The notes below the pieces were generated by a model. The model was not told where the DNA came from and did not search any database. It was given only the letters and a program-made list of their open reading frames with translations. From assembly GCF_041260155.1 (NCBI RefSeq), contig NC_091943.1:15863283-15927282 (forward strand): a stretch of DNA of 64,000 nucleotides. Reading direction: 5' to 3'. Positions 6,403-40,623 of this stretch are shown here, in pieces; positions within the stretch are counted from its first letter, which is position 1; every line of letters begins with the position of its first letter. The DNA comes from Ptychodera flava (taxonomy: Eukaryota > Hemichordata > Enteropneusta > Ptychoderidae). Both the position numbers and the translations under genes were made by a program.

Positions 6403-6434
6403 GCTTGAGTCATGGAGGTAGACCATGCTTGAGT
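6403..6434. mobile_element. Ultrashort ATGGAGGTAG insertion (16 bp) with 8-bp duplication
   Basis: The direct repeat GCTTGAGT occurs at 6403-6410 and 6427-6434. Between them lies CATGGAGGTAGACCAT, which shares the ATGGAGGTAG start of the palindromic insertions near 9.4, 12.9 and 25.2 kb and ends in the inverse CCAT. It looks like a member whose second arm is reduced to four bases. Confidence 0.55.
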
Positions 6435-8249
6435 GGACGTAACGCGTTGGCCAAGACGCAAACTAGAAATTTTGCAACTGGCAGCTGAGGGACAGAGACT
6501 AGTCCGGGAGCTAGATGAAAAGGGAGAGAGGTTTCCAACCAGGACTCAGTTGAAGAACGATTCTCGAAAATTATTAACTTTAAAAAGTGACAATATGGTC
6601 ACCAGGGAACTGGCTTTCATGATTAATAGTAATGGGAACTAGATTTTTCAATATAGGGCATATACCCTTGGGATTAATGAATTACATAGAATCGGTTTAT
6701 TATAAGCTTACCACAATAAAGACGTGGTTTCCGCAACAGGTGAGTACAAAGAAACCACTCGGGGGAAAAACAACCAAAAATGTTACTTTCGGTTTAAAAT
6801 GCTGGTCTACGACACATCTGTTAAGGTGCGAATCGTTGCAGCGATGCAGGGGGTCCCCGCGTCCAAACCAAATCACATCCGACAAAAGAAACGAGAGTTA
6901 AGTTGCGCAGCAGGGGTCAGGTTGACTGAACAGATGGGGGTCAGTTCAACTCAAAAGGGCTACCCTTAGAAATGAATGATCGCTCGTGAAGGTCAAACTG
7001 ATTGTCATTGTGCTAACACTCATCGACTAATAGTCTTGATTTATCCGTGGTCGCATTCACCTTTGACCCGCTATTACCGTCCCCCCATCTTCCGTGAACT
7101 CGTAAACCGGACTTTATTGTTTAGCTGTGGACAAATACAGTTACTCAAACAAAAGCGGCCTAAAACACACGGTCGGTTACCACGGTCGGAAACCCGATGT
7201 TGCTCAGACTGCTTACCAAGTTACGTAGTGTCCGTATTTCTGATCATGGACAGCACATAACATTCTCAACAGTCTGTCTCTGTACCGACTGGCTTTCGGA
7301 ACTCGCATTTGTACCTCTTGAAACCTACGTGCTCTCCCCGGGGTGCTCTCACCACGATCCTACCACCGATGTACTAGATTCAAGCTCTCACAAAATGGTT
7401 CTATTTCAAATCAGGCAATATTTTTTATCTTCATTGGTCTGTAAAATGTAGGGAACTCAGAAATAATGTGTTTAAAGAGCCATTTATGGTGTACTCGTGT
7501 TGGTCCTGTAGCATAATAATTGCATAACATTTTCCCAGTGTATTGTTTCAGCTCGTTGTTTCAATTAATGTAATAAAAAACGACATTTCATCATGGAGGT
7601 GTCGTGGATGCCCTAGAATTTCTCCAAGCTTGCTGAATTATTAATATAATAACAGTGTAAACTGATATTCTAAAGTTCAACAGACTATGTCGCATTAATG
7701 ATGGATGATCGCGAAACAGGGAACTTCCGAGTACGCCCGAGCAAGATAAAAAAAGAAAGCGAACATAGCCGTTGTCAACGACATATGCCAAGTGACAAGT
7801 GAGCTAGTCTGTGACTACACTGCTGTCTTGCATGTACATTTTGCTTTTACCTGCCGAGTTTTATGGCGGTAAAACACTACAGTAACGCCGACCGAGTACG
7901 TTTCGATTTTATTCGCCGCCACGAACACTATTGTAACGGCCAAAAACAAGATGAACATCGTTAAACATGGAGCGTAGACAGTGAAGCGAAAGACTCACTG
8001 TACATGCGTGGATGTAGCACACAGGTGAACTTCCTCCATAGTCTCAGAGAATCCTGCGAGTGTCATCCAATACAAAGCCATGCAGATTTGAGTCTTTAGA
8101 ATTTATGCGCGCTTATACCCGTTGAATTACAAATACCCTGCAAACGATTAACATTAATCGTGGAGTGTGAGGGTGAAGACACATCAGCGGGTAGTGAACG
8201 ACATCAGCAACCGCCTGAGTTGATGCTGGTTCAGCATGTCTGTCTTTGT
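6435..8249. other. Intergenic, no gene seen
   Basis: Frames up to 94 codons occur, but none has a recognisable domain, coding periodicity obvious by eye, or splice support. Confidence 0.45.
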
Positions 8250-8381
8250 GTCACAAAGGAAGCCCTGCGTATAACTAGCTCTGCGAGGCAGGGCCATTGT
8301 GATACCGGCGTTATACGGCCTCCAACCACATCGTATAACGCCGGGAACACACAGCACGGTACGCAGGGCTAGTCACAAAGG
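8250..8381. mobile_element. Hairpin element B, copy 1, with 10-bp flanking repeats
   Basis: GTCACAAAGG occurs at 8250-8259 and 8372-8381. Between them is a 112-bp fold-back sequence beginning AAGCCCTGCG and ending CGCAGGGCTA. Its inner arms, GATACCGGCGTTATACG and CGTATAACGCCGGGAAC, are close inverses. A related hairpin with its own flanking repeat lies at 39225-39336, sharing TAGCTCTGCG, CAGGGC and the CCGGCGTTATACGG arm. The flanking repeats look like a target duplication. Confidence 0.7.
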
Positions 8382-8432
8382 GAGAGCTAATAACAGTGAG
8401 TGTATGAGAGACGAGAAGGTACCTTATCAGTG

Positions 8433-8475
8433 CACGGTCCCTCTTTCCCCGGAACGGTGATATAGAGGGACCGTG
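8433..8475. repeat. Hairpin with 12-bp perfect arms
   Basis: CACGGTCCCTCT at 8433-8444 is the exact inverse of 8464-8475. Direct repeats TCAGTG lie at 8427-8432 and 8477-8482, again suggesting a small palindromic insertion. It lies about 50 bp downstream of hairpin element B copy 1. Confidence 0.55.
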
Positions 8476-8965
8476 GTCAGTGTCTTCTCCGTAGAAGGTG
8501 ATATACCTGAGTCATGCATTGCTCACAACAAAGTCACAAACAATAATATTCCTACACATGCTCATTCAAATGAAATGTGTGGGCAAAGTTCCCGTCGGAT
8601 ATGAACCCCAAGTTCTCCCTTGCCCAAGTAGGCGCATGTCGTTTCACCATGCCGAAGAACCCACTGAATCTCGAACATTCGCCGGCCGCATGCGCGCACG
8701 GTCCGGGGTTTGTAAGACGTGCGCAGGAAAGGGCCAAACAGTAATTCTGTGAACACACAATGACGACCACATATAGTTTTTGGTTCTCTAAAAATAGTAG
8801 CGTTTGTAATACAGGAATGCGGATTCGCATCCTCATTTCAAAATTACCTACGGATGGATTAACGCAATGGCCTTCTCTGCCCTAAAAGGCCATGGCTTTC
8901 AGGGTTTATTTCTGTTGTCTGCTTGTGTTTACCCGTATCCATAGACTTTGTCGGGATGCAGCCTC

Positions 8966-9312
8966 TTAAGGTGGTACGCGTCTTGAAATTGAAAGACTTC
9001 AACTTTTGCTGAAGTTTTCCATAAAGAGACTTTAAACCATTCACTTTGTAGATATCAAGAATACAAATCAGGGGTCACCGCGCAAAATTTGGCATTAAAG
9101 AAACCAAGCATCCAATATTTTATACTGACATTTGAAATTCAAAATGGCCGCCATCCCTGTCTTGACTCTATGAGGAAAAATAAAATTTTCGATTTTCCCC
9201 AAAAATAAGTCTAGTAAAAACATGATTTAATCCATGAGCTTCAATCTTGAGTGGTAGGCAAATAACGTACTGAAGTCGGAATATCCCATCCCCGAGCTGC
9301 TTTCTACCGTAA
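8966..9312 (-). mobile_element. TTAA MITE family, copy 1
   Basis: TTAA at 8966 is followed by GGTGGTACGCGTCTTGAAA and the family interior. Landmarks in this orientation are an AGACTTCAACTTTTGC-type end, TCAGGGGTCACCG, and AAAATGGCCGCCATCCCTGT. The far end reads GCTTTCTACC followed by GTAA, a decayed TTAA. It is one of ten copies in the window. No coding capacity is seen. Confidence 0.75.
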
Positions 9313-9356
9313 TCAGGGTCACGGGTCATCTCGAGTAGCTGCATGGAGGCAGCACT

Positions 9357-9402
9357 GCCATACCATGGAGGTAGTAGTCTCTACTACCTCCATGGCCATA
9401 CC
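9357..9402. mobile_element. Ultrashort palindrome insertion (30 bp) with 8-bp duplication
   Basis: GCCATACC at 9357-9364 is repeated at 9395-9402. The 30 bp between them is a near-perfect palindrome: ATGGAGGTAGTAG, loop TCT, then the exact inverse, plus one extra G. The same core with other target repeats occurs at 12907-12946 and 25165-25204. Confidence 0.7.
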
Positions 9403-9954
9403 AACTATCTCCTCAGGATAAAGGAATAATAAGGGTTGCGTTGGATGCGCCACCACGCTGAAGCAGTTTCACCATCTTTGTTACTCATTCCTTTGCGAAC
9501 AAACTGGATAATTGTCAGCTAGAAGACAATAGTTACTTACTAGTATGTGATTTTAGAGAAAATCTTTTGGACAGGTTTTGGCGGGAAAGCTGCATGCACG
9601 ACAGTTTCCATAATCAACGCATGCAGAGCAGATAAGCGGCATACCAATGTGAATAATCACCACTATTCAATCATGTCAGTGTAGAATAGCGGATGTTGTT
9701 CACACGGTGCAGAAAAATCAGGACGGTAGTACGATATCAGCCGCGCCTGGAGATAAGCTATCCCTAGGCCAAAATACAAATTATTACCACAAGTTTCCTC
9801 GTTGTGAGTAGGTCACGGAGGAAGTTCATGAGTTCTGGATGGTCACGATAACAAACTTTTGTCGCTTGGATTTTAGTTTTCCTGCAATCTACCACCGGCT
9901 TAAAACATTTTTATGAAACAAAGAAAGAACATTTTTAGGCGCTTCACAAAGACT

Positions 9955-10313
9955 TTAAGGTAATATGCACCTCGAAAGTGAAAGACTTAAACTTTTGCTC
10001 TAACTTTCCTCAATGAAACTTTCAACCATTCTCTTACCAAAGCAAGAATAAAAATCAGGGGTCACCGTGCAGACTTTGGTACTAGTGAGACAAATAACTT
10101 GTGATTTCTCGATATTTGAAATCCAAAATGGCCGCCATCCCTGTGTTAACTCTATGAGAAAAAATAAAATTTTCGATTTCCGAAAAACTAAGACGGTGAA
10201 AACATATCTTTCGCCGAGAGCTTCAAAATGAGCCCCCACAAGTGGTAGGTCAGAAGAAAAGTGATAAAATTTGAAGGCCTGAATTTTTGTCCCCGAGGTG
10301 CGTTCTACCTTAA
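9955..10313 (-). mobile_element. TTAA MITE family, copy 2, with both TTAA sites
   Basis: TTAA occurs at 9955-9958 and 10310-10313. The terminal repeats GGTAATATGCACCTCG and the inverse of CGAGGTGCGTTCTACC are related to each other. The interior has TCAGGGGTCACCGTG and AAAATGGCCGCCATCCCTGT. The 132-residue open frame across it has no domain, and I treat it as chance. Confidence 0.85.
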
Positions 10314-11113
10314 ACGTAAAACCCTGAAAACCCGATCGAAGGAAACGAAAGCGATATCCAGACAGCACGATAGCCGTACTGTCATGTCGCCACATATAGG
10401 TTACTTTTTGTCACTGTGTTGTGGCGTGCTTGTCCCCATCAGGCCTGTGCTTCCACCGCAGACCACGGAGCACTATATAGGGGAGGTTACACCATGACTG
10501 CTATCAACGGAAGGAATGGCCGTGCCATGCAATACCGTAACCAGTATTGACAAAGGCGGCATGTTTGAAAGGCAGCTAAGCTTCCCCATTTTGAACTCGT
10601 GTTTACCGTGCAACTCTTCCCCTGTCCGTCTCTCAGGTACCTTGAATTCGTTTATAAGGTCTTCGTTGATTTCTCTGAATAAACAAATCAAAACAGCTCT
10701 GAATAAACATACGTCCAGCGCTATATAATCAAATTTATTTATCGATTAACTGTATTATGATTTGCGGCATGGTGGCAAGCAGCGTGAAGTCCTCTTTTTT
10801 ACCTTCATCCAAGCATGCAGTCATTTTTTGTCATAACTTAAAGTATATGTCGAAGATTAACCAAGCGGCCATTACATCCGGAATTTTATGAAGGGGCCCG
10901 CAGCAGGTGTGGCTGAGATCATGATTATGGATTTGAAGTTGATCTTCATTTTTCAAACTTACATTTTATATTATATATTTTTTCTGTACCTATTGACACT
11001 GACAGATAGAAGTGAAAGATGTGATTTAATAATTTGTATGTGTGACAATAAGAGTATGAGAATGGACGCGGCGTTGTAGTAAATGATAATATTGGTAAAG
11101 GATTGAAGTTAAA
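10314..11113. other. Intergenic, no gene seen
   Basis: No recognisable gene. AT content rises toward the following microsatellite. Confidence 0.5.
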
Positions 11114-11146
11114 ATACATACATACATACATACACCCATACATACA

Positions 11147-11180
<34 letters not shown>

Positions 11181-11308
11181 CATACATACATACATACATA
11201 CATACATACATACATACATACGTACATATATACATACATACATACATACATACATACATACATACATACATACATACATACATACATACATACATACATA
11301 CATGCATG
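11114..11308 (+). repeat. (CATA)n microsatellite
   Basis: Almost pure four-base repeat with a few single-base variants. Open frames through it, His/Thr/Tyr-rich or Met/Tyr/Val/Cys-rich, are artefacts. Confidence 0.95.
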
Positions 11309-11768
11309 CATTAAAGAGGGGCGACAAGAGGGAATAGCAAGGTAATCATGGAATCATGGCGGAAAGTCTTCTTGGAGGAGTCTAGCCACACTGCATGCAC
11401 TGACTTTTGCTTGTGAGCTGGCCAGGCCCAATTCTTCATTTCGCGGTGCACGTTTTCCAGTCGTGATCAATTTCAATGTACAGGTCATTTGCCATAATTG
11501 CAACCCACTTGAGTCTTGGCCACTCTACTGCTTAGCACTTTACTATGTGTGAAAGTTGTTATGGCGATGTCGCATGGGCGTTGGTTACGGCCGCTGTTTT
11601 GCCACTGAAGGTCAGCTTACGTAACTCTTGACCAATCGAGATGTGAAATACACACAATTTGAATAAGTTATCATATTGGTCGCCATGGCTAAAGCGATAA
11701 CCAATGAAAACATTCCATGTGTGATTGCGTTGACCTTATTTGGCAATACGCCAAGCCTCGCTGTATCC

Positions 11769-11863
11769 TTTTAAAAAGCTTGACTCCGCCCGAGATACTT
11801 TCACTTGCAAGAGTCTAGGAGAACAGCTTACATCTGTACAGCCGAGTTTACAGTTATAAGAAG
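11769..11863 (+). promoter_or_regulatory. TATA-like core promoter and non-coding first exon
   Basis: TTTTAAAAAG at 11769-11778 sits about 30 bp before TCACTT at 11801-11806, a plausible initiator. The inferred 5' exon (about 11803-11863) ends in AAG followed by GTGAGT, a strong splice donor. The matching acceptor is TTTCAG at 12976-12981, seven bases before the ATG of the mini-mucin gene. This is inferred from sequence only. Confidence 0.5.
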
Positions 11864-12906
11864 GTGAGTTGATCTTGTTTCTGTCGATCGAGCTTCAATT
11901 TTTCAGTTTTTGATTGACTAGAAGCCTACCTATAACCGAACGGTTGTGAATAAACTGTGATTTTGTGATGTAACCAAAATCTGCGAGCGTGCCATGAATC
12001 ATTGCAGTTCGGCGCGGTTCAACACGAGGAAGTTGCTTCTTTAGCTTGTTGCTAATGTGACCCAACGTTCAGTGCCTTGAAAATGCTTTCCCACTTGTTA
12101 AATATGGTTCCTGTTTACAATGCTTACAAGTTGCACCCTTCTGAAATTACACATTTTCGAACCCATTCAGGAAAATGTAATTTCACGTTGTCGTAATTTC
12201 TTCTCACCACATGGAGATACATCCACAAATCTACTATTCAAACAGTAGCCATCTTTTTGCGGTTCAGTTACAATCTTGCATCAAATATTTCATGTTCTTT
12301 CTGGAAGAAAATGGTATATAATTCGGCGACAATATTTTTTCCAAAATTTTCGCATTTTCTTTCCGTTTAGAGAAGGGTATGTGTGCTGTTGCCGCTGATG
12401 TTGCGTAATAACTTTTAAGTACTAAGTAAAATTGCATCTTTTGTCTACCATGAATGGCTTGGCGCTGATGTTGGCTAATAGCTGCACGTCTGGTCTTGTA
12501 CAAATGAATTGCGTTTCACAGATTCGTCGCCACTAGTTTCCATTGTGCGCGTCGTGGGTTCCCGGGAACTGCTCTGGTCGCCTCGCAACCGGGTATCCGT
12601 GCGCGCGGCACGTTATACGGTGCCACTGTGTTGTGGCAACATCACTGATACAAATACAAGGCCATACTTTTCTTTATTGCTCTTTATTTAATTGCTTTGG
12701 CAACATACATACTTGCAAATCGAAAGTCCCCCGGCCGTGATAATATTACAGCAAAAAAAGCAAACGACCTTCAGCCCTTCACCTGTTTTCAACTTGAAAA
12801 CATTTTCGAGCTCTCAAATCAACATTTTCGCACCCGTATGATTTTTCATCACCTTTTTGAAAACGCCCGCACGCATGGTATCGCTGGCGCAACGTTTTTC
12901 TTTGAC

Positions 12907-12946
12907 GGTACAACCATGGAGGTAGTAGCTACCTCCATGGTACAAC
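12907..12946. mobile_element. Ultrashort palindrome insertion (24 bp) with 8-bp duplication
   Basis: GGTACAAC at 12907-12914 is repeated at 12939-12946. Between them is CATGGAGGTAG, loop TAG, and the inverse CTACCTCCAT. The unit lies in the first intron of the mini-mucin gene, 43 bp before its coding exon. Confidence 0.7.
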
Positions 12947-12988
12947 TGACATTTAATACTTCTTTTTCACCTCCATTTCAGGACAAAG

Positions 12989-14320
12989 ATGCGTACTCTC
13001 CTCACAGCCGTTATTTTGGGTTGCATGCTATCAGTAGCATTCGGTAAGCTGTCAATACTCTCTTTAGTGTATACTCCCCAGGTGGTTCATTCGTATGCAC
13101 CTACATATGACGTATACGTGCAATGGAGAGACTGTGATTGGGAGGTGCCTCTGCGCGTCTTCCGCGCCGCCGGCCTGTTTCTAGAAATTTCTGCGTAGGG
13201 CGTGGCTCACGGTCATTGTACAAAAATTTAGCAAAACCATGTTGAATTTTATCCATCATTGTATCGTCATCATCCCTTTTTTTAAGATTTCTTGTGCAAC
13301 AGGCAAGAGTTTGAGGTGGGGCAGAGACATGTGACCTCTTTCTGAAGATAGTTCAAAATGTCTAAGCCCAGTAAGGAATTTCAAACCAAACAGTGACCAC
13401 TGATGTGTACACATCCCTCATACACAGGCCAATTCAAGCAGTAGAGGACCGTACGGCTTCTTGGGCCGATCATCTACTTTTTTCTAGTCTTCGGATCTTC
13501 CATACTGTGATTTAAGCGAGACGCAATCTTAGGTCCCTGCTGAGTGTGAATTTTTGTGATTTTTTTTCTAACTTTCATTTCTTTTTCATACGTACAGCCA
13601 CTACAGCTGCCCCAACCGCAGCCGCCACAACAGGTAAATTGAAATTTTATGTCTAGCTCTTTTTATTTGACAGATTCATCATGACCATCCTTTCACGAAA
13701 TGCAAATGTCAGTATTCACTATTCACATTCAAAAATCTGGATGAATGCACTTTAATTGGCAGAAGACACAGACGGTCAGGTTTTGAAAAAAACGGCAGGA
13801 GAAAGTTTGAAAACTAGGCATCCTTGACAATAGTATTATACTACATGATTTAGTTAATACCAAATACGAGATTAGAACCAAGTAAAACCGTTTCTACATG
13901 TACTCACTTTTTCTCTGTTTATTCTATAGCTGCAGCTGGAACAGGAGCGACGACTGCCGCCGCCGCCGCCACGACAGGTAAGACTTTACTTGAATCAGTT
14001 TCACCACATTAGTTACGTAACTTCGTCTGGCGGTGTTCCAGTTTCAAGTTTAGGCCGCGGGTTGTCATTGTTTGCGCGGGAATAAAAACCGTGAATGTTA
14101 GTTGCAATGGTTCAACTTCTTTATTGTGGCGGAGAAATAACATCTGTTACAGTTTCTCGCAATACCCCCTCACCCACCAAGCAAATATAACAAACTCTGA
14201 TATCGTGTCAAAATTTCCTTTTGTGTTTTGTTCTTTACAGAGGACACCAGTGGATTCCCAGTTGTCTCCGCAAACATCCTTCTCATTGCAGCTGCTTTCT
14301 TCATGGCTTTGTTCCGTTAG
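12989..14320 (+). CDS. 72-residue secreted, probably GPI-anchored Ala/Thr mini-mucin (spliced from microexons)
   Basis: Four coding exons splice exactly in frame: 12989-13043, 13598-13633, 13930-13977 and 14241-14320 (219 nt including the stop), all with GT-AG borders. Residues 1-19 are a signal peptide (MRTLLTAVILGCMLSVAF plus a split Ala). Residues 20-46 are almost only Ala and Thr with one Pro and two Gly, a dense mucin-type O-glycosylation region. The last exon adds EDTSGFPVVSAN and a hydrophobic tail ending FFMALFR, as in a GPI signal or a very short membrane anchor. Both middle exons (36 and 48 nt) are symmetric phase 1, so skipping or adding them keeps the frame. The ATG follows CAAAG with A at -3. 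After the stop, a donor at 14335/14336 and an acceptor at 14818-14819 imply a 3' UTR intron, and AATAAA lies at 15275-15280. I recognise no orthologue. CD52-like or sialomucin-like proteins share the architecture only. Confidence 0.6.
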
Positions 14321-14819
14321 AATCCTGAACCATGGGTAAGTTGCTACTCTTTGCGGTGTGGACATTCTCTGCTGCCTGTCAGTGAGGGAGATCCTGGCTA
14401 TATATTTAGTTGCTCCGGTGTGCCTCGCGATCTGAAATCGACATTTCCTCGTGGCCAATTCTCTCGCAGGTCACAGTGGACCGGTATGGTATTCAGTACA
14501 CGATTTGAGCTGGTGAATTTTCTATTGGTTAATACATTAATCATTTGATTCGCATCTCCAAACTGTCTCCACTAGTTCACGTCACTTTTATGTAAATGAA
14601 CAATTGTTCGCGTCGAATTCAGTGAAAGATATTTTAAGCATTGGTGATATAAAGCTTACTGTTTATACTTGACAGTATAAAATGTCAATTGGTTAATCTA
14701 ATCGATTTAAATTTATCTCAGCAGAAGCAACTTGTTTCCTCAATAATAATAAATGCCCCAACACAACGCTATAAAATTGACGGAACTTTGTATTAAAAAC
14801 ATTTCATCTTTTTTTTCAG

Positions 14820-15280
14820 ATATATTTAAAAAGAGCTGATGTTGCCAGTATGAAGTTTTTATGCCATGTATTCTTGAAAGTCGTCGTGAAGGCTGACATG
14901 ACGGTGCTTATAGATGAAGAACGGACGGACTTTGCCGCACGTCTCAGGACTTCGACGCCTAACCGGAAATGACGCAACTTCCCGTCGGTTCGGTGACTCT
15001 GCATCCGAAAGTTTTCACCCGACAGATCAATTGCCATTCCAGTAACCAAGGACACCAGTTCAAAAAATACGCCGCAAATATTCCAAACTTCGGTCGTTTC
15101 TTTCTAACACTTGTCTAACATGGCATAAAGTTCAACCGGCAGTCACTTGCATCGGCCACAGTGCAATTTTTTAATTGGGATCCCTTGGGACCCAACTACT
15201 AAAAAAACATTCTCACAACGGCTTTTAAAAAATTGCTGTACACTTTCCAGAGACGAATCGTCACTCCGTTGTGTAATAAA
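14820..15280 (+). other. Inferred last 3' UTR exon and poly(A) signal of the mini-mucin gene
   Basis: A T-rich tract and CAG at 14817-14819 form a good acceptor pairing with the donor 15 nt after the stop codon. AATAAA at 15275-15280 is the first clear poly(A) signal. The intron is too close to the stop to be expected to trigger nonsense-mediated decay. Confidence 0.4.
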
Positions 15281-16990
15281 ATAAATTGCTTTTTTTAATG
15301 TAAAATGGTTTGTGTAACGTGTCTCTTTGCCTCCCCAGATTCAAAATAATTGACCACTATTTTCAAGTGAGCCCTCACAAGTTTCGGCCTTGATTTTTAC
15401 AACTGTAGCATTATGTGACCCTTTCTTCTTGAAATAACAATCGGGTTGATAGACTCAAAATTAACATTTTTGCAAGGTTAACACTTTAAAGGTCATCACC
15501 TGTCGTACCCGGATGTATCAGGCCTCAATTGCAAACTTTACCGTCATAGCCGCATTGCTCTCCGCTCCTCAAAACGTGATATTGATGGCCGAAAAATCTT
15601 TGAAAAATGCTGCTCCATTTCAAAAAAATGTCCCCAATTTTGAACATGCTAGTGTCGTATATATAATGCTGCTTTTGAAAGCGAAAAATGGATGCATTCT
15701 GATAAAGTAAAATTGTTTTTAATCATCTTTAAACAAAGTTCAAATTCTTGGCAGGAGCTTTATGTATCCCCCTTTAGAACAACCTGTGCAAGTGATGTGT
15801 GGATCTGTTTTGATCCAGAAGCCTTCATGGTGGAGGGGCTATGTTTGAAGGTCGTCCGTTAATTGCAAAGAGGGGAGTGTTCCACCGATTGTATGCTTTT
15901 AGCAACAGAGCTCTAATGAAGCAACTCTGGCATAATTAAATGTTTATTCTGATTCCGATAAGTAGACCCACTCTGAGTAAAACGAACCATGTTGGCCAAA
16001 ATCTCTTCAGATAATGCATTCTCATTTCCCGTCTGTTTATAAGATGTGTTTTGCATGATTTCCCGTCTGTTTAAAGTGACTTCCATAATGCATGGAGACC
16101 CTGAAGCGAGGTCTCAGTCAACAGATACGACCGACAGTTATGCCACAGTTTCTAGCTCACAAAATTAATTAAAAATCGCCTTTTTTAGGCGGACAGCTTC
16201 ATCAGGCTGTATAATCAGAATTAAACAATGTTCACTTGCAATGAGTAAGGTATGAGTGTGAAAAACTGCGTCTCATCAAATGCTTGGAACTTCCAGGCCT
16301 GTTTGACGTGAAGTAAACGGAAAAAAGAGGAGTCGAACGCGGATGGTGTTGAACTTCATAAGTTTGTTGAGTAAATTGCGACAGACTACAGCGTAATAGT
16401 CAGAGTCGTTTCAACTCTGTAGGGACAATTCGGAAGAAAGAACGCTCATTTGCTGTGTACATAATATTGGTTTTGTTAAAAACCTGCGCTAAAATTTAGC
16501 AGCAATATTATATATCACGCTTTTGTACGCTGCACAAGAATCAACAGTGTAGCCTCACAATACGATACCGCGATTTTGACGTAGACACTTGAAAAGATGG
16601 TGTGTACGCTTTTGCTGACACTTGACAGATCATGAGTGACACAGAATGCAAACAAAAAGTGTTTCTCCTTGTAATTGTCACTTGCCCGCATATGCGGAGA
16701 GAAGCAACAGTCAAAGATCGTGTGTGAGTCGCCCTATAGTGGGGGTTGTGGCAAATTAAAAAAAAGTGACTGGAATGTAAATGACTTGAAAATTCCATCT
16801 TCAAAGTTTTAGAAAATCAGATGTCACATAACGTCTGTCCACCAATTACGTTGCTATTTTGTGGCAAGTTTGTCGCGAAAACGCCCGTCGGTCACCGCCA
16901 TCAACCGACAGAAATTCGCTCGGCGACGTCTTGACAGCCTTGCCTTGCGTCACTGGAAGTGAAGTTACAAATTGTTGTACGATGGAGGTA
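15281..16990. other. Intergenic, no gene seen
   Basis: Short frames only. The phrase TTTCCCGTCTGTTTA occurs twice near 16026 and 16060, a small local duplication. There is no RNA gene or domain. Confidence 0.5.
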
Positions 16991-17004
16991 CGAGCGAGAA
17001 TCAT

Positions 17005-17500
17005 AGATTTATTTTATTTTATTTTTATTTTATTTTATTCATTCTGACATCCAACAGGCATACCCCAATAACTGGATGCAAACAGAGAAAAATTAAAACA
17101 TGAAAAAGACAAATTACAATATGCAGAAACTAATTTTAAAAAAGGCACTAAACAAGTAACAACAGAGACTGACAAACATCAAAAACTCTCGGTAGTAAAA
17201 TGACTATCAGCAAGAGAAAATAAAACAGATGACACTTGGGTTTTAAAAGCACTAAGACTGGTAAACAAAGCAATATCAAAACGATAGACACTATTTAAAA
17301 GTGTCATTGCCCGAGACGAAAAGCAATATTTAGACAGGTTAACGCAGTGATTTGGTATCCGGAAAAGGTCAGAAGACCTGAGACGCCCTGAGGGCCGGGT
17401 CTCTGTTTTTCCATGTTCTGTGTAAAGTTGTTTTTTTTAATGGGCTGTAGACAACCTTGGTCTCGGTGTATCCGCGTTGTCTGCAAACCCGTGACAAATG
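17005..17500 (-). repeat. Possible retroposon 3' end with TAAAA-type tail
   Basis: Read on the minus strand, about 450 bp of low-complexity, formerly coding-like sequence runs into a (TAAAA)n tail at 17005-17040. This fits the 3' end of an old LINE or related retroposon, but I see no diagnostic reverse-transcriptase motif. Confidence 0.3.
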
Positions 17501-17796
17501 CCGTTTGTTAGGCAGAGATAATGAGTGTGGTTCTTGCCTTGCAGTGCAACGTAATTTATGTATATTGCTTTAGTAAATGCAAATCAACATCGCCCACCAA
17601 CAATGTAATTTGAATATCTATAGTGAAGATCCTCACAATGTAAAGGGGCAACTTTTCCCATGAGATTTGTTAAACCATTCATTAAAGTCCGTACCGGCAC
17701 CTTAAATTTATTCAAATATCCATGCTGTCCTTTCAATGCAAAATCAGTGATATGAACGCGGTTCAAGTTCAAATTTCAGCCCTATTTGTTAACATT

Positions 17797-18138
17797 TGTC
17801 GTGATGGGGTTTTATGATCAAGGTTCTTGTCTGACTTTTACACAGAACTGCGAACGACACCAGTTCATGCTAAGAACACAAGCTTTATTACTGAACACGC
17901 CGTGAGATAAAAAAGGCGCCAACCGGAACACAACTGTAGCAATTACATGTAAAGGCACCAAAGCGCATGCACCGAATGTAATAGAACACCAAAGGATAAA
18001 CATTTTTTTGGCGGGAGATTATAGTCCACAGTCATTGGACGAAAGTTACCGAAGAGTCTGATTGGTAGAAGGATAACACATAGGCTCTGCTTAGTCCTAT
18101 TAATAATGTTCAAATGATGTGTCATTTGTTCTCCGACA
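17797..18138 (-). repeat. 3' LTR of the BEL/Pao element
   Basis: 342 bp, TG...CA type (TGTCG...CGACA). It matches the copy at 23724-24064 at about 99%. It is preceded by ACATT, the left target duplication. Confidence 0.93.
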
Positions 18139-18258
18139 TTCTCCCGGCGACGAAAGATAATCTTGAACACTTTCAATATGAATTATCAATAAATGATTCG
18201 TTTGAACAAAAAACTCAGAAATTTCAAAGAGTTAATTGTCTCAACAGTTACAACAATT

Positions 18259-21200
18259 TTATGAAAGTTCGGATATTCTCATCCTGGCTGCAATGGCCGC
18301 ATCTCTGGACGGTCTCCCCGACTCGGGCGGGTCATTGGTTTTCTCAGCAGAAATTTCTTGCCGATGGATGTCTTCCCGCTCGTTCACATCTTTGTCTTCA
18401 GATGATGATAATTCTTGAGAGGCTACCTCAAGGGGGTATAACTTGTGTATAGGGCGGTTGGTGTGTCCCCTGGCGGTGGAGATTTCAGCTGATCGCACCA
18501 ACTTGTCACGTCCATAAACAAGTCTCTTCACAGTCCCGAGCTGCCATTTCATCCTACGATCGATATCACTATGGATCAGTACCACATCTCCCACTTTAAT
18601 TACATTGTGCTTGTTTCCGGAACCGGAGTGACGTTCTCTCAAAGCTGTCAAATACTCGGTTGACCATCGCTTCCAGAACTGTTGTTGGAGATTTGACAAA
18701 TGTGCGTAACGTCTGTTAACATCATTGTGGTTTCCAAAAGTCGGGTCTTCGATTTCTTCATCGGAGACTGTGATGTATGGTAGTGAGGTCAAGCTTCTAC
18801 CATGTAACAGGTGATTTGGGGTCAGGCTAACGTCATCATCCGCACTGGATGAAACGAAGGTGAGTGGGCGATCATTTAATACAGTCTCAATTTCGGTGAC
18901 GACGGTAGCAAGCTCATCATACGTGATGAATGATCGACCGAGAACCTTTTTAATCGCATTCTTCGTGAGACTTATGAGCCGCTCCCAAAAGCCGCCAAAC
19001 CACGGCGCACGTTTGGGTATGAAAGTCCATTTCACTCGCTGAGATGAGAGATAATCTCGAACATCAGGCGTGTCGAGCAAGGAGCGTATCTCCTCGGCTC
19101 CAGAGATGTACGTCGAGGCGTTGTCGGATAACATTCGGCTAGGCAGGGATCGTCTTGCAGCAAAACGGCGAAACGCGAGTAGAAATGTTTTAGTCGTCAA
19201 ATCCGGTACCAATTCCAAGTGTATGGCCGTGTAACCGCACAGGTAAACAGGCACACGTATGCCTTGTTTTGTTTACCATCAATAGCCTTGGTGAGGAGAG
19301 CCCCCGTGAAGTCGACCCCCGTCACACTGAATGGAGGGGTGATGTTCACGCGATATGTAGGCAGCGGAGCTTGGACTGGGTTAGTGTACGGCTTTCCTTC
19401 AACTTTCAGACAGGTAACACAGTTGTGAAGAATCTTGCTAACGATACGTCGTATTTTCGGTATCTAGTACTGTTGACGAAATGTGTTACAGTCGACTGGA
19501 CTCCTCCATGGAATACGCGTTCGTGTGCTTTCAGAACGACCAGTTTAGTGAATTCATGGTGAGAAGGCAGCAACGCTGGAAATTTCGTGACATAGTCCAA
19601 TGCTGCATTGTGTACACGGCTGCCACATCGAAGTGTGCCCTCGTTATCGAGATAGGTTGAGTTGTTGAACCAACGGTCCGAACCTCTTCACATTCATCCT
19701 CATGGAATGAATAGTGTCTGTATATATCTCAGATTGTACGTCTTTATCCAGATTTGTTCAGCATGTCGTATCTCGTCCGGTGAGACTACTCCTGACGGCG
19801 TGTCTCTGTTTCGCTGCAGTCGAGATTTGAAACGAAATACATACGAAGTAACGCGGAATAGTTTGTCTAACGAGCTGAAACGAGTAATGTCCACCGCGTA
19901 TTGTATGCCAACGTCAACTGTGGGGTCGATTTCCGTGTTTGATGAGCCGATGTTCTCAGTGGATCGGCGAGAAAGATCCTCAACGTGTTGCATTTTATCG
20001 GCAACCTCAGCATCGATTTGTGTGTGAGGCTCGATCATGAAGTCGTCCGTTGTAGCGATATGGTGTACTGCGCTATCAAACAGTTCACAGATTGGCCAGT
20101 CTCCATTTTCTTTCAACCAAGTAGGGCCGTTCCACCATAGAGTAGAATTGGCTAGTGATCAGAGGTAATGCCTCGAGTTAACAAATCAGCTGGGTTGTCA
20201 GCGGAGGGGCAATATTTGTAGATGTGACGAAAACCATTGATCTCTCTGACGCGATTGCTTACGAAGATCGGCAGCTTCTTGACACTGTTGATCCAATACA
20301 ACGCAATTTGACTGTCCGACCAGAGATACCGCTGTGTAATGTTTATCTTGCCGGAGAGAGCGTTTATTACGAATTTGCTGAGTCGAGTGCCAATCAGGGC
20401 GGCCATCAGTTCTAACCGAGGCAGTGACAAATCGGACGTTGGAGCGACGCGTGCCTTGGCCATAACGATAGAAGTTTCACTTGAACTGCGGAGATAAACT
20501 ACAGCTCCGTAGGCGGTAGTGCTGGCGTCAGCGAAAACATGAACTTCGCAGTCGTCGTTATCTTTATTCCCTGAGAAGTATTGGCGGTTTATTGTCGTCT
20601 TGCGTGTAGCATTCAAGTCCGCTGCGATCTGTATCCATTGAGAGTTCAATTCAGCATCGAGCGGTTCGTCCCAAGGGAGCCCGCGTTTCCATAGTGACTG
20701 TACAAAGAGTTTAGCTCTGATGTGAACTGGAGCTACGAAGCCCAGTGGGTCGTACAGTGTAGCGGAGGAACTGAGAACATCTCGTTTCGTTATCAATTCA
20801 TTTGGAATAGGCTCGCTATTATTTTCTGAGTAGGTCATCTTGTCGCTTTCTGGTTCCCAACGCAGGCCGAGTACTGGTACATCACGAGAGGGTTCGTAGA
20901 TATCGTCCTGTTTTGCGAGTTCACATAGTCGTTCACTGTTGGACGTCCATGAGCGCAGCTTGAACCACACGACTGCATGAGGTGGTTTGCGTCGTTGTAA
21001 TATGACACGGCCTTTTCATCAGACTTGGCACCGTCTATCACATTGTCAACATAAATATTATGTTTGAGGTCATCAGCAGTCGGTATGGAGGCATTACTTT
21101 CCAAGTGAGTCTTGATTACAGCGTTGAGCATGAATGGGGAACAAGCCGCCCCAAACAGAACAGACTTGAATTGATAAACATCAAATGGACTTTCGGGATC

Positions 21201-22650
21201 ACGAATGTCCGATAACCAAAGAAATTTGGTGTATTGACGCTCGTCTTCCTCTAGACGTATGTTTAAGAATGCCTTTTCAATGTCACTGACGAAAGCGATT
21301 CGGTTAGCGCGAAATCGTAGCAAAATGGCAGGTAAATCATTGATTAATGACGGCCCAGTTTGAAGACAGTCGTTTAGACTTGCCGAGTCAGCATTTTGTT
21401 TGCTACTGCAGTCGTATACAATACGTATTGGAGTGGTAACTGAGTCCTTCTTGACAGCTCGATGCGGCAAATAATGTCCTTCAGTTTTGTTGTCATCTTG
21501 AATCTTCTCGACGAAGTCTCGGCGCAGTTGATCGGTGATGATATCGTCATATCTCTTCGTTAAGTCAGGGGCCAAACGGCGAACCATAGCGCGCGTGCGA
21601 TTTTCAGTTGCCGCATAGTTTGAAGGCAGTGGCGGATGATCAGTTTTCCATGGTAAACGGGCAATGTATTTACCATTTTCAACACGTAGATGAGTGTCCC
21701 GATATGTTTCGAAGTCGGTATTTTCATCATTTTGCGAGTCTGCCTTCACTCCGATGAGCTCTAAATTCCACCAGTTTCGTATGTCATCGTCGGTGTGTGT
21801 TTCTACGTTCACGTGATGAATATTAATGTCAGAGTCCAATTCCCACGCTTTCCAGTAGGACCGGACAACAAGTAGCCGAACTTAGATGATATTGCAGTTG
21901 GACCTGCCCCGCGCACGATATGGTTTCCAACAAAGTTCCAATATTGATCAGCTCCGATGAGTACATCAATTTCCATAGTTTTAACATTGGAAACTGGTGG
22001 GCAAGCTTTAATCCCCGTAGATGGTCTGAGTTGAGTATTTCTGCTGACACGTGGTTGAATAGGTTGGACGAAATCTCGGGAATTATCAGGGCGTTAACAG
22101 TACTGGTATGCCCATTCTGTTCGTGCAAAGTTACCATTGCACTTTTCATGGAATGAATTTGTTTCGAATTGTCCCCGAATGTTGACAGGCTAACGTTCTC
22201 ATGAGTGTCCGATTTCAAGTTGAGTTTGTCAGCAAATCGCTGCGTGATAAAAGTTCTGTTGGACCCATCGTCAAACAGCACGGTAGCGTTGATAGGTTTC
22301 CTATCGCCGACCGACATAGGAATGACTGCCGTCTTGAGGAGAACCGATCCGTTGGGTGTAGATTTCCCCTTTGTGTCGTCTGTTTTCGCCAATGCCACAT
22401 GAACTTCAGAAGTTCCCTTTTTCTCAGACGGTGTAGCTGATTTGGTGTCATGAAGGGTAGAGTGATGTTTACGCTTGCAGATCTTGCAAGTGTAACGAGA
22501 CTTGCAATCGCTCACGCGATGCTTTCCAAGGCAATTGTAACAGAGACGATCGCGTTTGACAATGTCTAAGCGACGTTTCGGGTCGGTGACAACTTGGCAA
22601 TCACTTGTGTAGTGATTTCCCTTACAAAACACGCATGTTTTGATTCTCAA
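18259..22650 (-). pseudogene. pol-like region of the BEL/Pao fossil (protease, RT, RNase H, integrase)
   Basis: On the minus strand the parts run from a CCHC-knuckle and aspartic-protease section (about 21.8-22.65 kb, with CYNCLGKHRVSDC and a VLFDDGSNRTFI active-site region), through a reverse transcriptase section (about 20.8-21.8 kb, with FVSDIEKAFLNI and QFKSVLFGAACSPF), an RNase H section (about 20.15-20.8 kb, with FADASTTAYGAVVYLR), to an integrase and C-terminal section (about 18.26-20.1 kb, with MLSDNASTY, FIPKRAPWFGGFWERLI and a LIHSDIDRRMKWQLGTV module). These are standard Pao/BEL signatures. The region is broken and not a working gene. Confidence 0.88.
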
Positions 22651-23696
22651 AGGCTTTGTTGTGCGCGTAGATGCGGCCTTAGTATGAAATAAGCGGTCAT
22701 ATTAGGCTGTGTTGCTGTGTCCGCAACCGATAACTCATCGAGTGGAACTCCGGCTTGAATGGCGTCGATTTCCCGTAGGATGGCTTTGCGCAACTCTGGT
22801 AAAGTCCAAGCCTTGTTTCCGTGATCTCTTGCGATCTGTTTCCGAATATTGTTAGGTAGTTTATCTCGAATCATGGGAATGAGAAGTTCTCCATAAGCGT
22901 TCTCTTCTTTGCCAAGTGATTGTAAACCGCGAATATGACTTTCTAATGTGTCATAAAACAATCTCAGACTGTTAATGTCACTCGTAGGTTGAGGAATCTG
23001 CCACAGTGCAGTCATGTGCGCATCGATGATCAAATGATTCTGTCGGTAGCGTTCGATGAGTAGCTCTAAAGCATGGTCGTAGTTGGAGTTTGTCAAGGCG
23101 AGACCGCTAATCGTACGGGCAGCTTCATCAGTTAAACGCTGCGTAAGTATGTGAACTTTTGAATGTTCTCGAGGTTCTTATCATTATGGATGGACGATTT
23201 GAAAGTGTCGTAGAAACTCACCCACTCGAGTACGTTTCCTGAGAAAGTTTTCAGCTGTAGTTTCGGTAATGCGACCGTTTTCCTTCGATGTGTCTTGAGT
23301 AGCGGTGTCGGAGTTCGCCGATGGGCCAGTCACATTGTTCGGTTTGTTGTTTTTGATGAAATCAGTGATCTTGTCGTTTCTCTCGAATATCTCGGACATG
23401 TAGTCGCCGGATTCTTGGCTCGCAGCATCGTAGCTTGCTTCATCCGTATTATCTAAGATATCTTCTTCGATCTTAGTTAAAGATTCGTATTTCTGAGTCA
23501 GTTGAGTGTTCAATGCTGTGAGTATCCTGTAAGCTTCAGTCTTGTTCTCAGCTGCAGCGAACGTTGATGTGAGTTGTTCTGCACGGTTGAACAGCCTCGT
23601 CATTTGGGCACGTTGTCCCCTGCGCTTGAGTTTCAACTTGGCCAATTTCGTTGCCAGTTGCTCGGCTTGAGTTGGTTGCTGCTCCTCGTCAGACAT
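22650..23696 (-). pseudogene. gag-like region of the BEL/Pao fossil
   Basis: It starts just inside the 5' LTR after the primer-binding site. A Lys/Arg/Gln-rich coiled-coil-like start is followed by a section with the Pao-type pattern DALWQIPQP...LRLFYDTLESHIRGLQSLG and LIPMIRDKLP, typical of the DUF1759 family that accompanies BEL/Pao elements. It is broken. Confidence 0.8.
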
Positions 23697-23723
23697 CCTA
23701 ATCCTGGTCTCGGCACCAAAAAA

Positions 23724-24064
23724 TGTCGTGATGGGGTTTTATGATCAAGGTTCTTGTCTGACTTTTACACAGAACTGCGAACGACACCAGTTCATGCTAA
23801 GAACACAAGCTTTATTACTGAACACGCCGTGAGATAGAAAAGGCGCCAACCGGAACACAACTGTAGCAATTACATGTAAAGGCACCAAAGCGCATGCACC
23901 GAATGTAATAGAACACCAAAGGATAAACATTTTTTTGGCGGGAGATTATAGTCCACAGTCATTGGACGAAAGTTACCAAAGAGTCTGATTGGTAGACGGA
24001 TAACACATAGGCTCTGCTTAGTCCTATTAATAATGTTCAATGATGTGTCATTTGTTCTCCGACA
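23724..24064 (-). repeat. 5' LTR of the BEL/Pao element
   Basis: 341 bp and nearly identical to 17797-18138. It is followed by ACATT at 24065-24069, the right target duplication. Confidence 0.93.
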
Positions 24065-24187
24065 ACATTGTAGAGGTTCCTTCCGTTTTAAATGCATGCA
24101 AAGTGTTGAAAATTGACGAATGGACTGTAGACCACTGGCCGCGAAATTACCATGATAAGGGATGACTCGAGGCTTTGTGGTCAATAG

Positions 24188-24284
24188 CACAGGCTCTAGA
24201 GTCAATGCAGGCGAACCGCTAGCCGCCACTGATACAATATCAGTGGCGGCTAGCGGTTCGCCTGCATTGACTCTAGAGCCTGTG
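24188..24284. mobile_element. Perfect 97-bp palindrome, hairpin element C copy 1
   Basis: Arms of 47 bp (24188-24234 and 24238-24284) are exact inverses around a 3-nt loop, starting CACAGGCTCTAGAGTC. A second copy with one arm mismatch and a clear 8-bp target duplication is at 39075-39174. No duplication is evident here. CACAGG...CCTGTG ends with 8-bp duplications recall hAT-type MITEs. Confidence 0.75.
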
Positions 24285-25164
24285 TATGATGCAGTGCAAC
24301 TATTTTTTCTTTCATGGCGACTTACACGTTACCGTTAGCGCCCTCTGCGATGAACCTTGGGATGCGCGTGATGGGAGTGTTATACTGAAGAGAGTCGTTT
24401 TAGGTATGGATTATCGGAAAAAGAGAAATGCTGCAGAAGCAGGCGATAAGTAACATGGCAGACTCAAATTGGGAGAATACTGTGCGGAAAATCGTTCAAG
24501 CATCTTCAAGCTACAGCAAACTCAAAGGGATACAGTCGTCGGAACTGCGCTCATAGTTATAGGTCGTATGGGACCCATACGACCAATGTAAACACTGTAT
24601 CCAAGGTACGATGGTGATTGATGAAAGTTAAAACATGTGTGTCATAATCTAAATCGTATAATTTAAATGTTGCAGCTATAATGATTAGGTGCATCGAGAA
24701 ATCGTGTACGAAATGCATTGTTTATAACAAGAAACTCGCACAGGCGCAGTTCTGACGACGGTTTCCTGGGGATAAAAGTACCGACTGACGCCGCGGCGCG
24801 CAGGATGGGTCGATTGTACTTAACTTGTGGCCTTTCACAGACGCGTGTAGCTCAACTGTAGATGTTGGTACAACCTGAATGAGTACCGGGTGTGTGGCGC
24901 GTAATCCGGGTGTGAAGGGAAAATTCGACGTTTTGCCAGTTTACTATCAATCTCATTGGTAGATGAGTTAGAAGTGACTGCAAAGCCTTCGGATGATAGT
25001 CGCGCGGACGCTAACAAAAAAGCCCTCGGCAAAGAATCTCCATTTCCAGGCTAACTTCGTCTATAGCAATTGTGCATGGTTCGGTTATCTTTACTTAAAC
25101 GCAATATGACGGATAGTGAGCAAAATGGACGATCAGATGGACTATAATTCACGAAGGACTATAG
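24285..25164. other. Intergenic, one short perfect palindrome
   Basis: No gene is seen. GGTCGTATGGG, a single A, then the exact inverse form a 23-bp palindrome at 24562-24584, without obvious flanking duplication. Confidence 0.5.
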
Positions 25165-25202
25165 GTATAATGATGGAGGTAGTTACTACCTCCATGGTAT
25201 AA

Positions 25203-25204
<2 letters not shown>
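25165..25204. mobile_element. Ultrashort palindrome insertion (24 bp) with 8-bp duplication
   Basis: GTATAATG at 25165-25172 recurs at 25197-25204 (the identity extends to 11 bp, 25164-25174 and 25196-25206). Between them is ATGGAGGTAG, loop TTA, the inverse CTACCTCCAT and a final G. The insertion abuts a (TA)n tract. Confidence 0.7.
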
Positions 25205-25280: not shown

Positions 25281-25583
25281 TTCAGGTTTGCCTGGAGTGA
25301 CAAAGTAACTGAGTTGTGACTCTAATTTTCGCACTCTATGTGGTCATCAGACAACTGACTGAGGAATTCTTGCTCTAGTCTGGTTCCCTGACCCATTTCC
25401 CCGGTAGAGGGCGTGGGGAAATATAGGGTCAGGTACCGGCTAATGTAAACATGGACGCTATTGGGTTAAAATAAAACAAGCTGTGATTGGATGAAAGTAA
25501 CACTTGTAACTTTTTCTCATGTTTCTTGGGTTCGCACTTTCAGGCTCACTTGACACCAACTTCTTGTTTGTACCACAAAGCCG

Positions 25584-25614
25584 TGGAGGTAGAAAGAAAG
25601 ACTTTCTACCTCCA
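25584..25614. repeat. TGGAGGTAGAAAG hairpin inside the fold-back element
   Basis: Perfect 13-bp arms at 25584-25596 and 25602-25614 surround a 5-nt loop. The outer bases match the ultrashort ATGGAGGTAG family but the inner arm differs (AAAG). Flanking 8-mers (ACAAAGCC and ATTTAGCC) match only partly, so a target duplication is unproven. Confidence 0.5.
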
Positions 25615-25629
25615 TGATTTAGCCATTGT

Positions 25630-28556: not shown

Positions 28557-28640
28557 GTCTCCGTGGCGCAACGGATAGCGCGTCGGACTTCTAAAGGGCT
28601 AGTTATTCGGAGGCTGTGGGTTCGAATCCCACCGGAGACG
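28557..28640 (+). tRNA. tRNA-Arg-TCT: tRNA-Arg(TCT) with 11-nt intron
   Basis: Exon 1 is 28557-28593 and exon 2 is 28605-28640. The acceptor stem GTCTCCG pairs with CGGAGAC, followed by discriminator G. The T arm is GTGGG TTCGAAT CCCAC, and the anticodon TCT is at 28590-28592. The intron (28594-28604) sits after position 37, the canonical place. The mature length is 73 nt, and TTTT follows within a few bases as pol III terminator. Confidence 0.95.
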
Positions 28641-28733
28641 CAGTTTTGTTGTCGGCAATCAGTTTTACAACTAATGAAGCGAAATCTTGCTGAAATCAGA
28701 CGCCTGCAGCGGATTGCTTGTAACACGAGCCCT

Positions 28734-29090
28734 TTAAACTTGTATGCGCCTTCAAAGTAAAAGACTTAAAGTTTTGCTCAAACTTTCCTCAAGGAATCTT
28801 TCAACCATTCTCATTCAAAATCAAAAACAAAAATCGGGGTCACCGTGCTAATTTTGGTACCAGAGACACAAATTTCTCAAGGTTTACCGATATTTGAAAT
28901 ACAAAATGGCCGCCATCCCTGTGTTAACTCTATGGAGAGATACAACACTTTTGGTTTTCGAAAAACTAAGCCGGTGAAAAGTTTCTTACACCAAGGGCTT
29001 TAAAATGAACCCCCACAATTGGTAGATCAGAAAATAAATGTCAAAGTTTGAGGGTCCGAACATCTGTCCCCGAGGCGCGTTCTACCTTAA
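28734..29090 (-). mobile_element. TTAA MITE family, copy 3, with both TTAA sites
   Basis: TTAA occurs at 28734-28737 and 29087-29090. The ends ACTTGTATGCGCCTTCAAAG and CGAGGCGCGTTCTACC match the family, as does the AAAATGGCCGCCATCCCTGT core. It starts 94 bp after the tRNA gene. Confidence 0.85.
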
Positions 29091-29164
29091 ACGGAAAAGA
29101 TTACCAAGTTACAAAATATTTCCCATGCATTTCTTTGCGTTAACTAGCTCAGAAACGAGGAATT

Positions 29165-30322: not shown

Positions 30323-30416
30323 GTCTCCGTGGCGCAACGGATAGCGCGTCGGACTTCTAGTTGATGTGATGTGACATGACATTCGGAGGCTGTGGGTTCG
30401 AATCCCACCGGAGACG
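30323..30416 (+). tRNA. tRNA-Arg-TCT: tRNA-Arg(TCT) with 21-nt intron
   Basis: The exons (30323-30359 and 30381-30416) are identical to the copy at 28557. The intron 30360-30380 is unrelated in sequence and nearly twice as long. A TTTTT terminator lies just downstream. Confidence 0.95.
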
Positions 30417-37513: not shown

Positions 37514-38614
37514 TGCCTACATAGACTATATTGAGACTGGCCTTCTCCAGATTTGGCTGTTTTGTTTTTCACTGAGAGTACTTTAAATGCGGGAAAGGTA
37601 CTAACTAACTGTAGCCTATGGAAGTTGCTAGAATTGCCAAATATATCACTTGCCTACCATGACTTCAATGATCCACTCGGTCGGAAATGTTTGGCGGCAG
37701 GAACATCACGAGTTCACTTTATCCCACGGTGTTTTAAAACCACGTCATTGACAATATATGATCAGTTTTGCTTTCCTGCGGTTGTACGTTTCTGTAAAAT
37801 GGATCGATTTTCACCGCACGCTCGGCGGAGAACTCACGCACGTGACGCTATGGACGCGACAACGTCCAAAATGTTCATGCACGACTCACGCAGATGCCAG
37901 GCTACATATGTGTATAGCTCAAAACCTGATCGATTCGTACTTCTTTCATGGATCTTTCTCGTCAGAATGATGGACTTTTTGCAAATATACGAAATAACAA
38001 TTACGAAAAGAGCTCAGCGTACATCTAAAACTTTGACAAATTCGTCGCGAGTAACGTGTTTGCCATGTTAGTGACGTAATTCTGTTTTGAAGGTTTCCAA
38101 AATTTAATTAAACCTCACGTTATGGATTTATCTCCCCTTCATCGTGTTCATTGTTTTTCCTATCAAATGTAGTGCGCATGTACCCTAGAGCTGCTGGGCC
38201 TATGGTATAATGAGCTAAGCGAGGGTATAGCACTCGTTTCCCTGGTCCGTGAGTGTGAAGCACTGAATAAGTATCACATTATGACCTACCGGAAATATTT
38301 ACGATTCATCTGTGACGAGATACAGTAACGTGATGTAATTAGTTACTTTTCTGAAAAATAAAATATTTTCAAATCACCGCTGCGGTGCGAATAAGAAATA
38401 TAAATTCTTTATCCGCACCGCTGCGGTGCGAATAACATCTTCCTTTAATATTCATGATCCCGAACGGGTTTGCATAGCATGATTCTTGCATTTCTAAATT
38501 GAAAGATGTCAGTAAAGTTTGCATGTCCGACTGCCTACAGCTTGCTTTTCCATTACGCCATCGGCTTCATCATGGCATCTGTGGAGGGACGGCGTACGTA
38601 GACTGTAGAGGAGG
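37514..38614. other. Intergenic, no gene seen
   Basis: An open frame of 172 codons at 37553-38071 has no recognisable domain and no splice support. CGCACCGC/GCGGTGCG palindromic phrases occur near 38.37 and 38.42 kb. Confidence 0.4.
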
Positions 38615-38654: not shown

Positions 38655-39066
38655 TGGCTCTATTGTACAGAGAAACGGGTAGATTTGAGGATCACGCTGT
38701 TTTCCTGTCAAGTAAGCCGTGCAGTTGATATTTTAGGATTCATGGGCTTCAACAGGAGGAACTGTGGTTTCGTCCACTGGTCTCGGTGTAGTTTTAATAG
38801 ACGATATAGTGCGAGAGCCGAGAGGGTCTATTTTTGTATGGTCTATACAAGCATGGTATATAGCTGAAATAATGCACCGTCACTCCGTGAATAATGGTAG
38901 CACTTGGAGATATATGCTTGCTGGGTTCTTCTGTCGAGGTGGCTGTTTGCCGGCGTTGACAGCCAACACGACGGAAGAAGCCGGTACACGACCCGAGAGC
39001 TACAATAATTGCAGCTAGGAAGTGGAAGCTTCTGGCTTACCTCCATGCTACGATAACATAAGTATA

Positions 39067-39182: not shown

Positions 39183-39224
39183 CATCGTAACATACCGCAA
39201 TCCTTGGGTGGGGACAGAAGGCAG

Positions 39225-40536: not shown

Positions 40537-40623
40537 CGTCTCCGGTGGGATTCGAACCCACAGCCTCCGAATGTCTGATTGCCTGCTAGAAGTCCGACGC
40601 GCTATCCGTTGCGCCACGGAGAC
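40537..40623 (-). tRNA. tRNA-Arg-TCT: tRNA-Arg(TCT) with 14-nt intron
   Basis: On the minus strand, the exons (40623-40587 and 40572-40537) are identical to the other two copies. The intron 40586-40573 differs again. TTTT lies downstream on the minus strand at 40532-40529. Confidence 0.95.

Follow-up and report, generated by a model that had tools for sequence, protein, structure and literature searches.

Short palindromic inserts between target duplications in Ptychodera flava: probable excision footprints of a P-like DNA transposon

Within a 64,000-nucleotide stretch of the genome of the hemichordate Ptychodera flava (NCBI RefSeq assembly GCF_041260155.1, contig NC_091943.1, positions 15,863,283 to 15,927,282 of the forward strand; referred to below as the window and numbered from its first letter), four short palindromic inserts, designated S1 to S4, are each enclosed by an exact direct repeat. 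We propose that these are the excision footprints of one family of cut-and-paste DNA transposons of P-superfamily type, with terminal inverted repeats beginning CATGGAGGTAGTAG, an interpretation that we hold to be likely. The four sites, and a possible fifth, are as follows.

S1, 6403..6434, plus strand: putative scar, duplication GCTTGAGT (or the 7-bp CTTGAGT) around CATGGAGGTAG-A-CCAT(G), 16-bp insert.
S2, 9357..9402, plus strand: putative scar, duplication GCCATACC (or GCCATAC) around CATGGAGGTAGTAG-TCT-CTACTACCTCCATG, 30-bp insert.
S3, 12907..12946, plus strand: putative scar, duplication GGTACAAC (or GTACAAC) around CATGGAGGTAGTAG-CTACCTCCAT(G), 24-bp insert.
S4, 25164..25204 (25165-25204 with the 8-bp repeat), plus strand: putative scar, duplication GTATAATG (or GTATAAT, or the 9-bp GGTATAATG) around (G)ATGGAGGTAGT-TACTACCTCCAT(G), 24-bp insert.
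S5, 25582..25616, plus strand: possible fifth scar, older or of a sister family, CGTGGAGGTAGAAAG-AAAGA-CTTTCTACCTCCATG, 35 bp, without an intact duplication.

All four inserts are built on CATGGAGGTAG(TAG), and at three of the four the inverse copy lies opposite, with ATGGAGGTAG facing CTACCTCCAT; at S1 (6403) only CCAT(G) is left of the right half, and the insert as a whole reads CATGGAGGTAGACCATG. An initial annotation of this DNA had the core facing its inverse at all four loci, which is correct for three of them and not for 6403, while its coordinates, repeats and insert form (ATGG...CCATG or the reverse complement) were all exact on re-checking. It had also taken the duplications to be locus-specific and to mark real insertion events, and this is borne out by flanking repeats that are exact at 4/4 sites and different at each, with lengths of 8-9 bp, or of 7 bp on a symmetric reading of the palindrome.

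The length of the duplication is ambiguous. In the symmetric frame, CATGG...CCATG, the 7-bp repeats given above are exact at all four sites and seven of the eight ends read CATGG inward, the eighth reading GATGG, so that a single base of S4 (G for C) breaks the palindrome. The 8-bp frame, in which the insert takes the form ATGG...CCATG or its reverse complement, requires two ends that differ by one base, and at S4 the flanking repeat stretches from 8 to 9 bp. Either frame is possible, and both lengths are known in the P superfamily.

The inserts can be parsed as two truncated ends joined to one another. Using CATGGAGGTAGTAG as the end sequence, itself derived from the sites, and allowing one mismatch at the first base of S4, we find that every insert consists of a prefix of this sequence, 0-3 filler nucleotides and a suffix of its inverse (left/filler/right, in nt: S1 11/A/5; S2 14/TCT/14; S3 14/none/11; S4 12/none/13). 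By this parse, with its 14-nt ceiling, 5-14 nt of the end are retained on each side. The whole inserts, which measure 17, 31, 25 and 25 bp for S1 to S4 in the symmetric frame, provide a firmer figure, and all fall short of the 34 bp permitted by a pair of 17-nt tails. The middle of the insert is unlike at each site and the outer edge is constant. Differing truncations behind a constant outer edge fit excision followed by end-joining; a single mobile hairpin should have its middle in common from site to site.

Comparison with shuffled sequence gives an excess of the core palindrome within the window, the pattern ATGGAGGTAG-N0-25-CTACCTCCAT having three matches as against none in 100 shuffles. 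Similarly, CATGGAGGTAG with at most one mismatch occurs 11 times, compared to a mean of 0.56 and a maximum of 3 in 100 shuffles; nine of the 11 near-matches are within S1-S5 and the other two are lone ends at 9342 (plus strand) and 39037 (minus strand). A generic scan for arms of at least 7 with a 7-bp repeat found S2 and S3, missed S1 and S4, and returned nothing from 20 Markov-1 sequences. Among 23 control palindromes with the same core, two from viral and 21 from prokaryote contigs, none is flanked by a repeat of at least 6 bp, and random window positions given equal slack show a repeat of at least 8 bp about 1% of the time, the microsatellites of the window included. When the window was compared with itself under dust filtering, no match at E<=1e-5 overlapped S1-S4 or came within 50 bp of them; the sites are therefore unlike copies of one larger repeat, an origin that was rejected. 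The duplications, the common end sequence, the variable junctions and the lack of a larger repeat around the sites can be read directly from the DNA. S1-S4 lie within 18.8 of the 64 kb, a weak clustering (p 0.08, or 0.03 when S5 is included).

S5 appears to belong to a sister end sequence. Its flanks, ACAAAGC and ATTTAGC, are identical at four of seven positions, and a flanking match of at least 6 bp was sought in shifted frames with none found; any duplication here is at most decayed. Elsewhere, at 2489-2526, an exact 8-bp repeat TATCAACA encloses TAACGATTCCACTTAACCGTTA, the ends of which form a short inverted repeat, perhaps the scar of another element and perhaps chance. At 38377-38435 a direct repeat of CCGCTGCGGTGCGAATAA surrounds a partly inverted copy, forming a compound palindrome.

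A plausible sequence of events begins with insertions of a transposon at four different places, each of which would have duplicated 7-8 bp. Transposase would later have excised it, cutting the second strand inside the terminal repeat as in P elements (17 nt in Drosophila), such that a single-stranded tail of the transposon end would stay on the chromosome at each side, and end-joining would then trim both tails and join them. With ends that are inverted copies of one another, such a join would produce a short palindrome enclosed by unbroken target duplications. From the anatomy of the sites we infer the earlier presence of a longer element, its P-superfamily identity and a 17-nt stagger; the assignment to this superfamily draws on how the scars are built, on their ends and on the lengths of the targets, and not on an enzyme.

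Excision products of the Drosophila melanogaster P element provide one of the closest comparisons. In Table 1 of PMC2895639 the post-excision junctions consist of the 8-bp target, the CATGATGAAATAACATA tail, a join, the inverse tail and the target again, each side keeping at most 17 nt of the terminal repeat; the paper gives 68 junctions for the genotype lacking Rad51. From the table we parsed 63 isolates, leaving out three that extend past the target. Both full targets are kept in 44/63, and part of one target is lost in the remaining 19. Among these 44, the inverted arms are at least 5 nt long in 40 and at least 10 nt in 35, and the inserts are 7-44 nt, a range within which those of S1-S4 fall. 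Three isolates of the form CATGATGAAATAA(CAT)G, 17 nt long with 4-bp arms, match S1 in form, the parallel to S1 being CATGATGAAATAACATG. The fly products and S1-S4 thus have the same order of parts, namely duplication, an end of at most 17 nt, join or filler, inverse end and duplication, with ends beginning CATG. The P end sequence itself differs from that of S1-S4, however, and the fly scars come from a Rad51-deficient assay and have an 8-bp duplication, whereas S1-S4 are on a reference chromosome and have one of 7 or 8 bp. The 17-nt stagger that P transposase makes at each end is described as unusually long and as distinctive among characterised cut-and-paste transposons in PMC7776569, and is given also in PMC10983969.

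Other members of the superfamily were compared by their ends and targets. Zebrafish Pdre2 has the ends CATACCTGTCAAC and an 8-bp duplication (PMC10983969). The element 1360 has 7-bp duplications with the motif GTTNAAC, P has 8-bp duplications with the consensus GTCCGGAC, and Galileo has 7-bp duplications (8-bp in three copies) of GTANTAC or GTATTAC; further sources for transposon comparisons are PMC4168063, PMC3276498, PMC8101967, PMC1562414, PMC11175523 and PMC2775673. Over random window 7-mers, the four 7-bp duplications of S1-S4 fit GTTNAAC with p 0.00017 (0.00022 in a second run) and GTANTAC with p 0.0005 (0.00047 in a second run). S1-S4 resemble Galileo and 1360 of Drosophila in having 7-bp duplications (sometimes 8-bp in Galileo) and, going by four sites, in their targets. 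These two are known as longer elements, and the accounts of them consulted here describe no scars; the likeness is one of duplications and targets. With the deuterostome P-type element Pdre2/THAP9 of zebrafish the likeness is in the CAT-initial ends and the 8-bp duplication; here the end sequence is another one, and an intact element is known in zebrafish whereas none was found in the 64-kb window. To summarize the superfamily features, a duplication of 7-8 bp is present at 4/4 sites, extendable to 9 at one of them; the ends are CAT-initial, in a comparison with two members only (P and Pdre2); and the inserts of 17-31 bp at S1-S4 and 35 bp at S5 are consistent with a cut inside the end, without fixing the length of the stagger. 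The CAT-initial ends, the 7/8-bp duplications and the target likeness to 1360 and Galileo would together point to the P superfamily.

Several observations weigh against this proposal. Partial loss of a target is seen in 19/63 fly isolates and in 0/4 sites here, S1-S4 having been noticed through their repeats, and the fly junction data come from Rad51-deficient animals. The 14-nt ceiling on each side was set by the 14-nt end supplied to the parse and does not independently prove that the cut falls within 17 nt. At 35 bp, S5 is one above the 34 allowed and has no clean duplication, and S4 requires one substitution, or ends that are unlike by one base. The fit to the P consensus is not significant (p 0.17, n=4), the target test as a whole comprises four sites and five consensus sequences with the frame chosen to suit each, and the target 15-mers are no more palindromic than random ones (p 0.42), and this tells slightly against a strong interpretation of that test. 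The 64-kb window yielded no intact element bounded by these ends, S2 and S3 being the only places in it with an exact 14-mer. The lone near-matches at 9342 and 39037 have no flanking repeat in common, and a long element between the two was rejected for want of such a match. A tblastn search of the window with 236 relatives of P transposase gave none at E<=0.01. No hemichordate is named among the best 120 of 126 relatives of fly P transposase, nor among the best 120 of 1142 relatives from a search with a 12-sequence alignment (both E<=0.001); these lists are arthropod-heavy with mostly unnamed entries and are no evidence of absence in hemichordates.

A Pfam scan of 10 open reading frames (ORFs), mostly near the sites, gave no match at E<=0.05, and five further ORFs were scanned, for a total of 15 of the 65 window ORFs of at least 100 amino acids. 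A DDE_3 transposase fragment is also present in the window.

It is unlikely that the scars derive from a different superfamily with 7-9 bp duplications, either Mutator-like or unstudied, in which the cut or an imperfect repair leaves end sequence behind, although no transposase was found in the window that would decide the family. In PMC5225508 the Mutator-like Muta1 occasionally leaves as much as 13 bp of its terminal repeat behind, but these end-retaining scars come from donors without duplications, excision from donors with duplications being mostly precise; here both duplications and part of both ends are kept at 4/4 sites. Merlin, with GG-initial ends and an 8-9 bp duplication, was rejected since the ends of S1-S4 start with CATGG, CAT being part of the insert and not of the repeats. 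The scars of hAT elements are also described otherwise, as detailed below.

We regard it as quite improbable that replication slippage or abortive gap repair deleted the interior of a resident inverted-repeat element (a miniature inverted-repeat transposable element or foldback), leaving the outermost bases of both ends and involving no excision by transposase. Such a deletion would likewise leave shortened ends between undamaged duplications, joined differently from site to site as S1-S4 are, and in wild-type flies the gap repair that follows P excision is commonly interrupted (PMC2895639). Remnants of many lengths would however be expected, whereas the inserts of S1-S4 are all 17-31 bp (n=4 sites), and no larger remnant with both ends was found in the 64 kb.

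The initial annotation had suggested that the 16-30 bp palindromes may themselves be mobile, with a hAT-like enzyme mobilizing them in trans, which we consider very doubtful. Genuine duplications and a common core are in keeping with this proposal, but the middle and the length vary by site and the inserts parse as two truncated ends with 0-3 filler nucleotides, and on these grounds a mobile hairpin was set aside. An insert of 16-30 bp would also seem too short for separate transposase binding sites, and the inserts are probably not tiny transposons. Excision by hAT enzymes modifies the flanks and is not known to leave transposon ends behind. By the parse, in contrast, S1-S4 retain 5-14 nt of each end, and PMC3499496 describes hAT scars as a few inserted template-complementary nucleotides, or deletions, arising from hairpinned donor ends. 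The hAT target motifs lack clear support at S1-S4 (hobo p 0.08; nTnnnnAn p 0.73; nnnTAnnn at one of the four; n=4, with the 8-bp reading possible), and a hAT-like mover was set aside on the type of scar. The suggestion of a repair-linked process survives in part, as repair is probably involved, in the excision and end-joining of a longer element and not of an ultrashort hairpin. For chance or an assembly artefact behind the palindromes we found no supporting point and give it next to no credence, chance being excluded as the origin of S1-S4 by the 0/100 shuffles, 0/23 control palindromes and 0/20 Markov sequences.

The window contains a number of other features, as follows.

32258-33517, minus strand: ORF with 100% identity over 91% of the query to Ptychodera flava sodium-dependent glucose transporter 1C-like isoform X2, the next match being at 46%.
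18259-23738, minus strand: series of Pao-type retrotransposon ORFs over several frames, one with a Peptidase_A17 match.
17797-18138 and 23724-24064: 342-bp direct repeat, 98.8% identical, flanking the Pao-type ORFs.
24188-24284: inverted repeat, its arms perfect over 47 nt and separated by a 3-nt spacer.
8966-9244, 9947-10321, 28732-29098, 41450-41759, 48533-48887, 49708-50041, 53916-54234, 59716-60267 and 62917-63282: dispersed repeat family of up to about 370 bp, about 68-85% alike in pairwise comparison, among the first 45 of 69 self-matches listed.
28557-28640, 30323-30416 and 40537-40623: tRNA-like sequences above the Rfam gathering score, two of them with odd anticodons, which may be tRNA-derived repeats.

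The 342-bp direct repeats are probably the long terminal repeats of the Pao-type element, and at 98.8% identity would then reflect a young insertion. The ORF at 23870-24328, which runs across the inverted repeat at 24188-24284, and an ORF in 39048-39533 have the run GSRVNAGEPLAATD in common, likely a dispersed repeat.

Of the open-licence papers listed on Ptychodera and hemichordate transposable elements, excision footprints and short palindromic insertions, none mentions these scars in its title or the opening of its abstract. Excision scars are a known kind, and what would be new, going by those titles and abstracts, is the hemichordate lineage: P-type scars are known from Drosophila assays, and here they would form a natural cluster. 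The sites also provide an example of how an excision scar may be mistaken for a new ultrashort transposon. From the presence of 4-5 scars in about 19 kb without an element found in 64 kb one may speculate, with little confidence, that acorn worms harbor a P-like family that is excised with unusual efficiency, even regularly, in the germ line or soma, and that the genome is a large archive of empty P-type sites; the density of scars merits a genome-wide count. If our interpretation is correct, a P-like element with CATGGAGGTAGTAG ends has been active in the hemichordate lineage, and this is the end sequence needed for finding it. A genome-wide catalogue of scars would then reveal the position of the cut and the habits of end-joining (trimming, microhomology and filler) in an animal far from flies.

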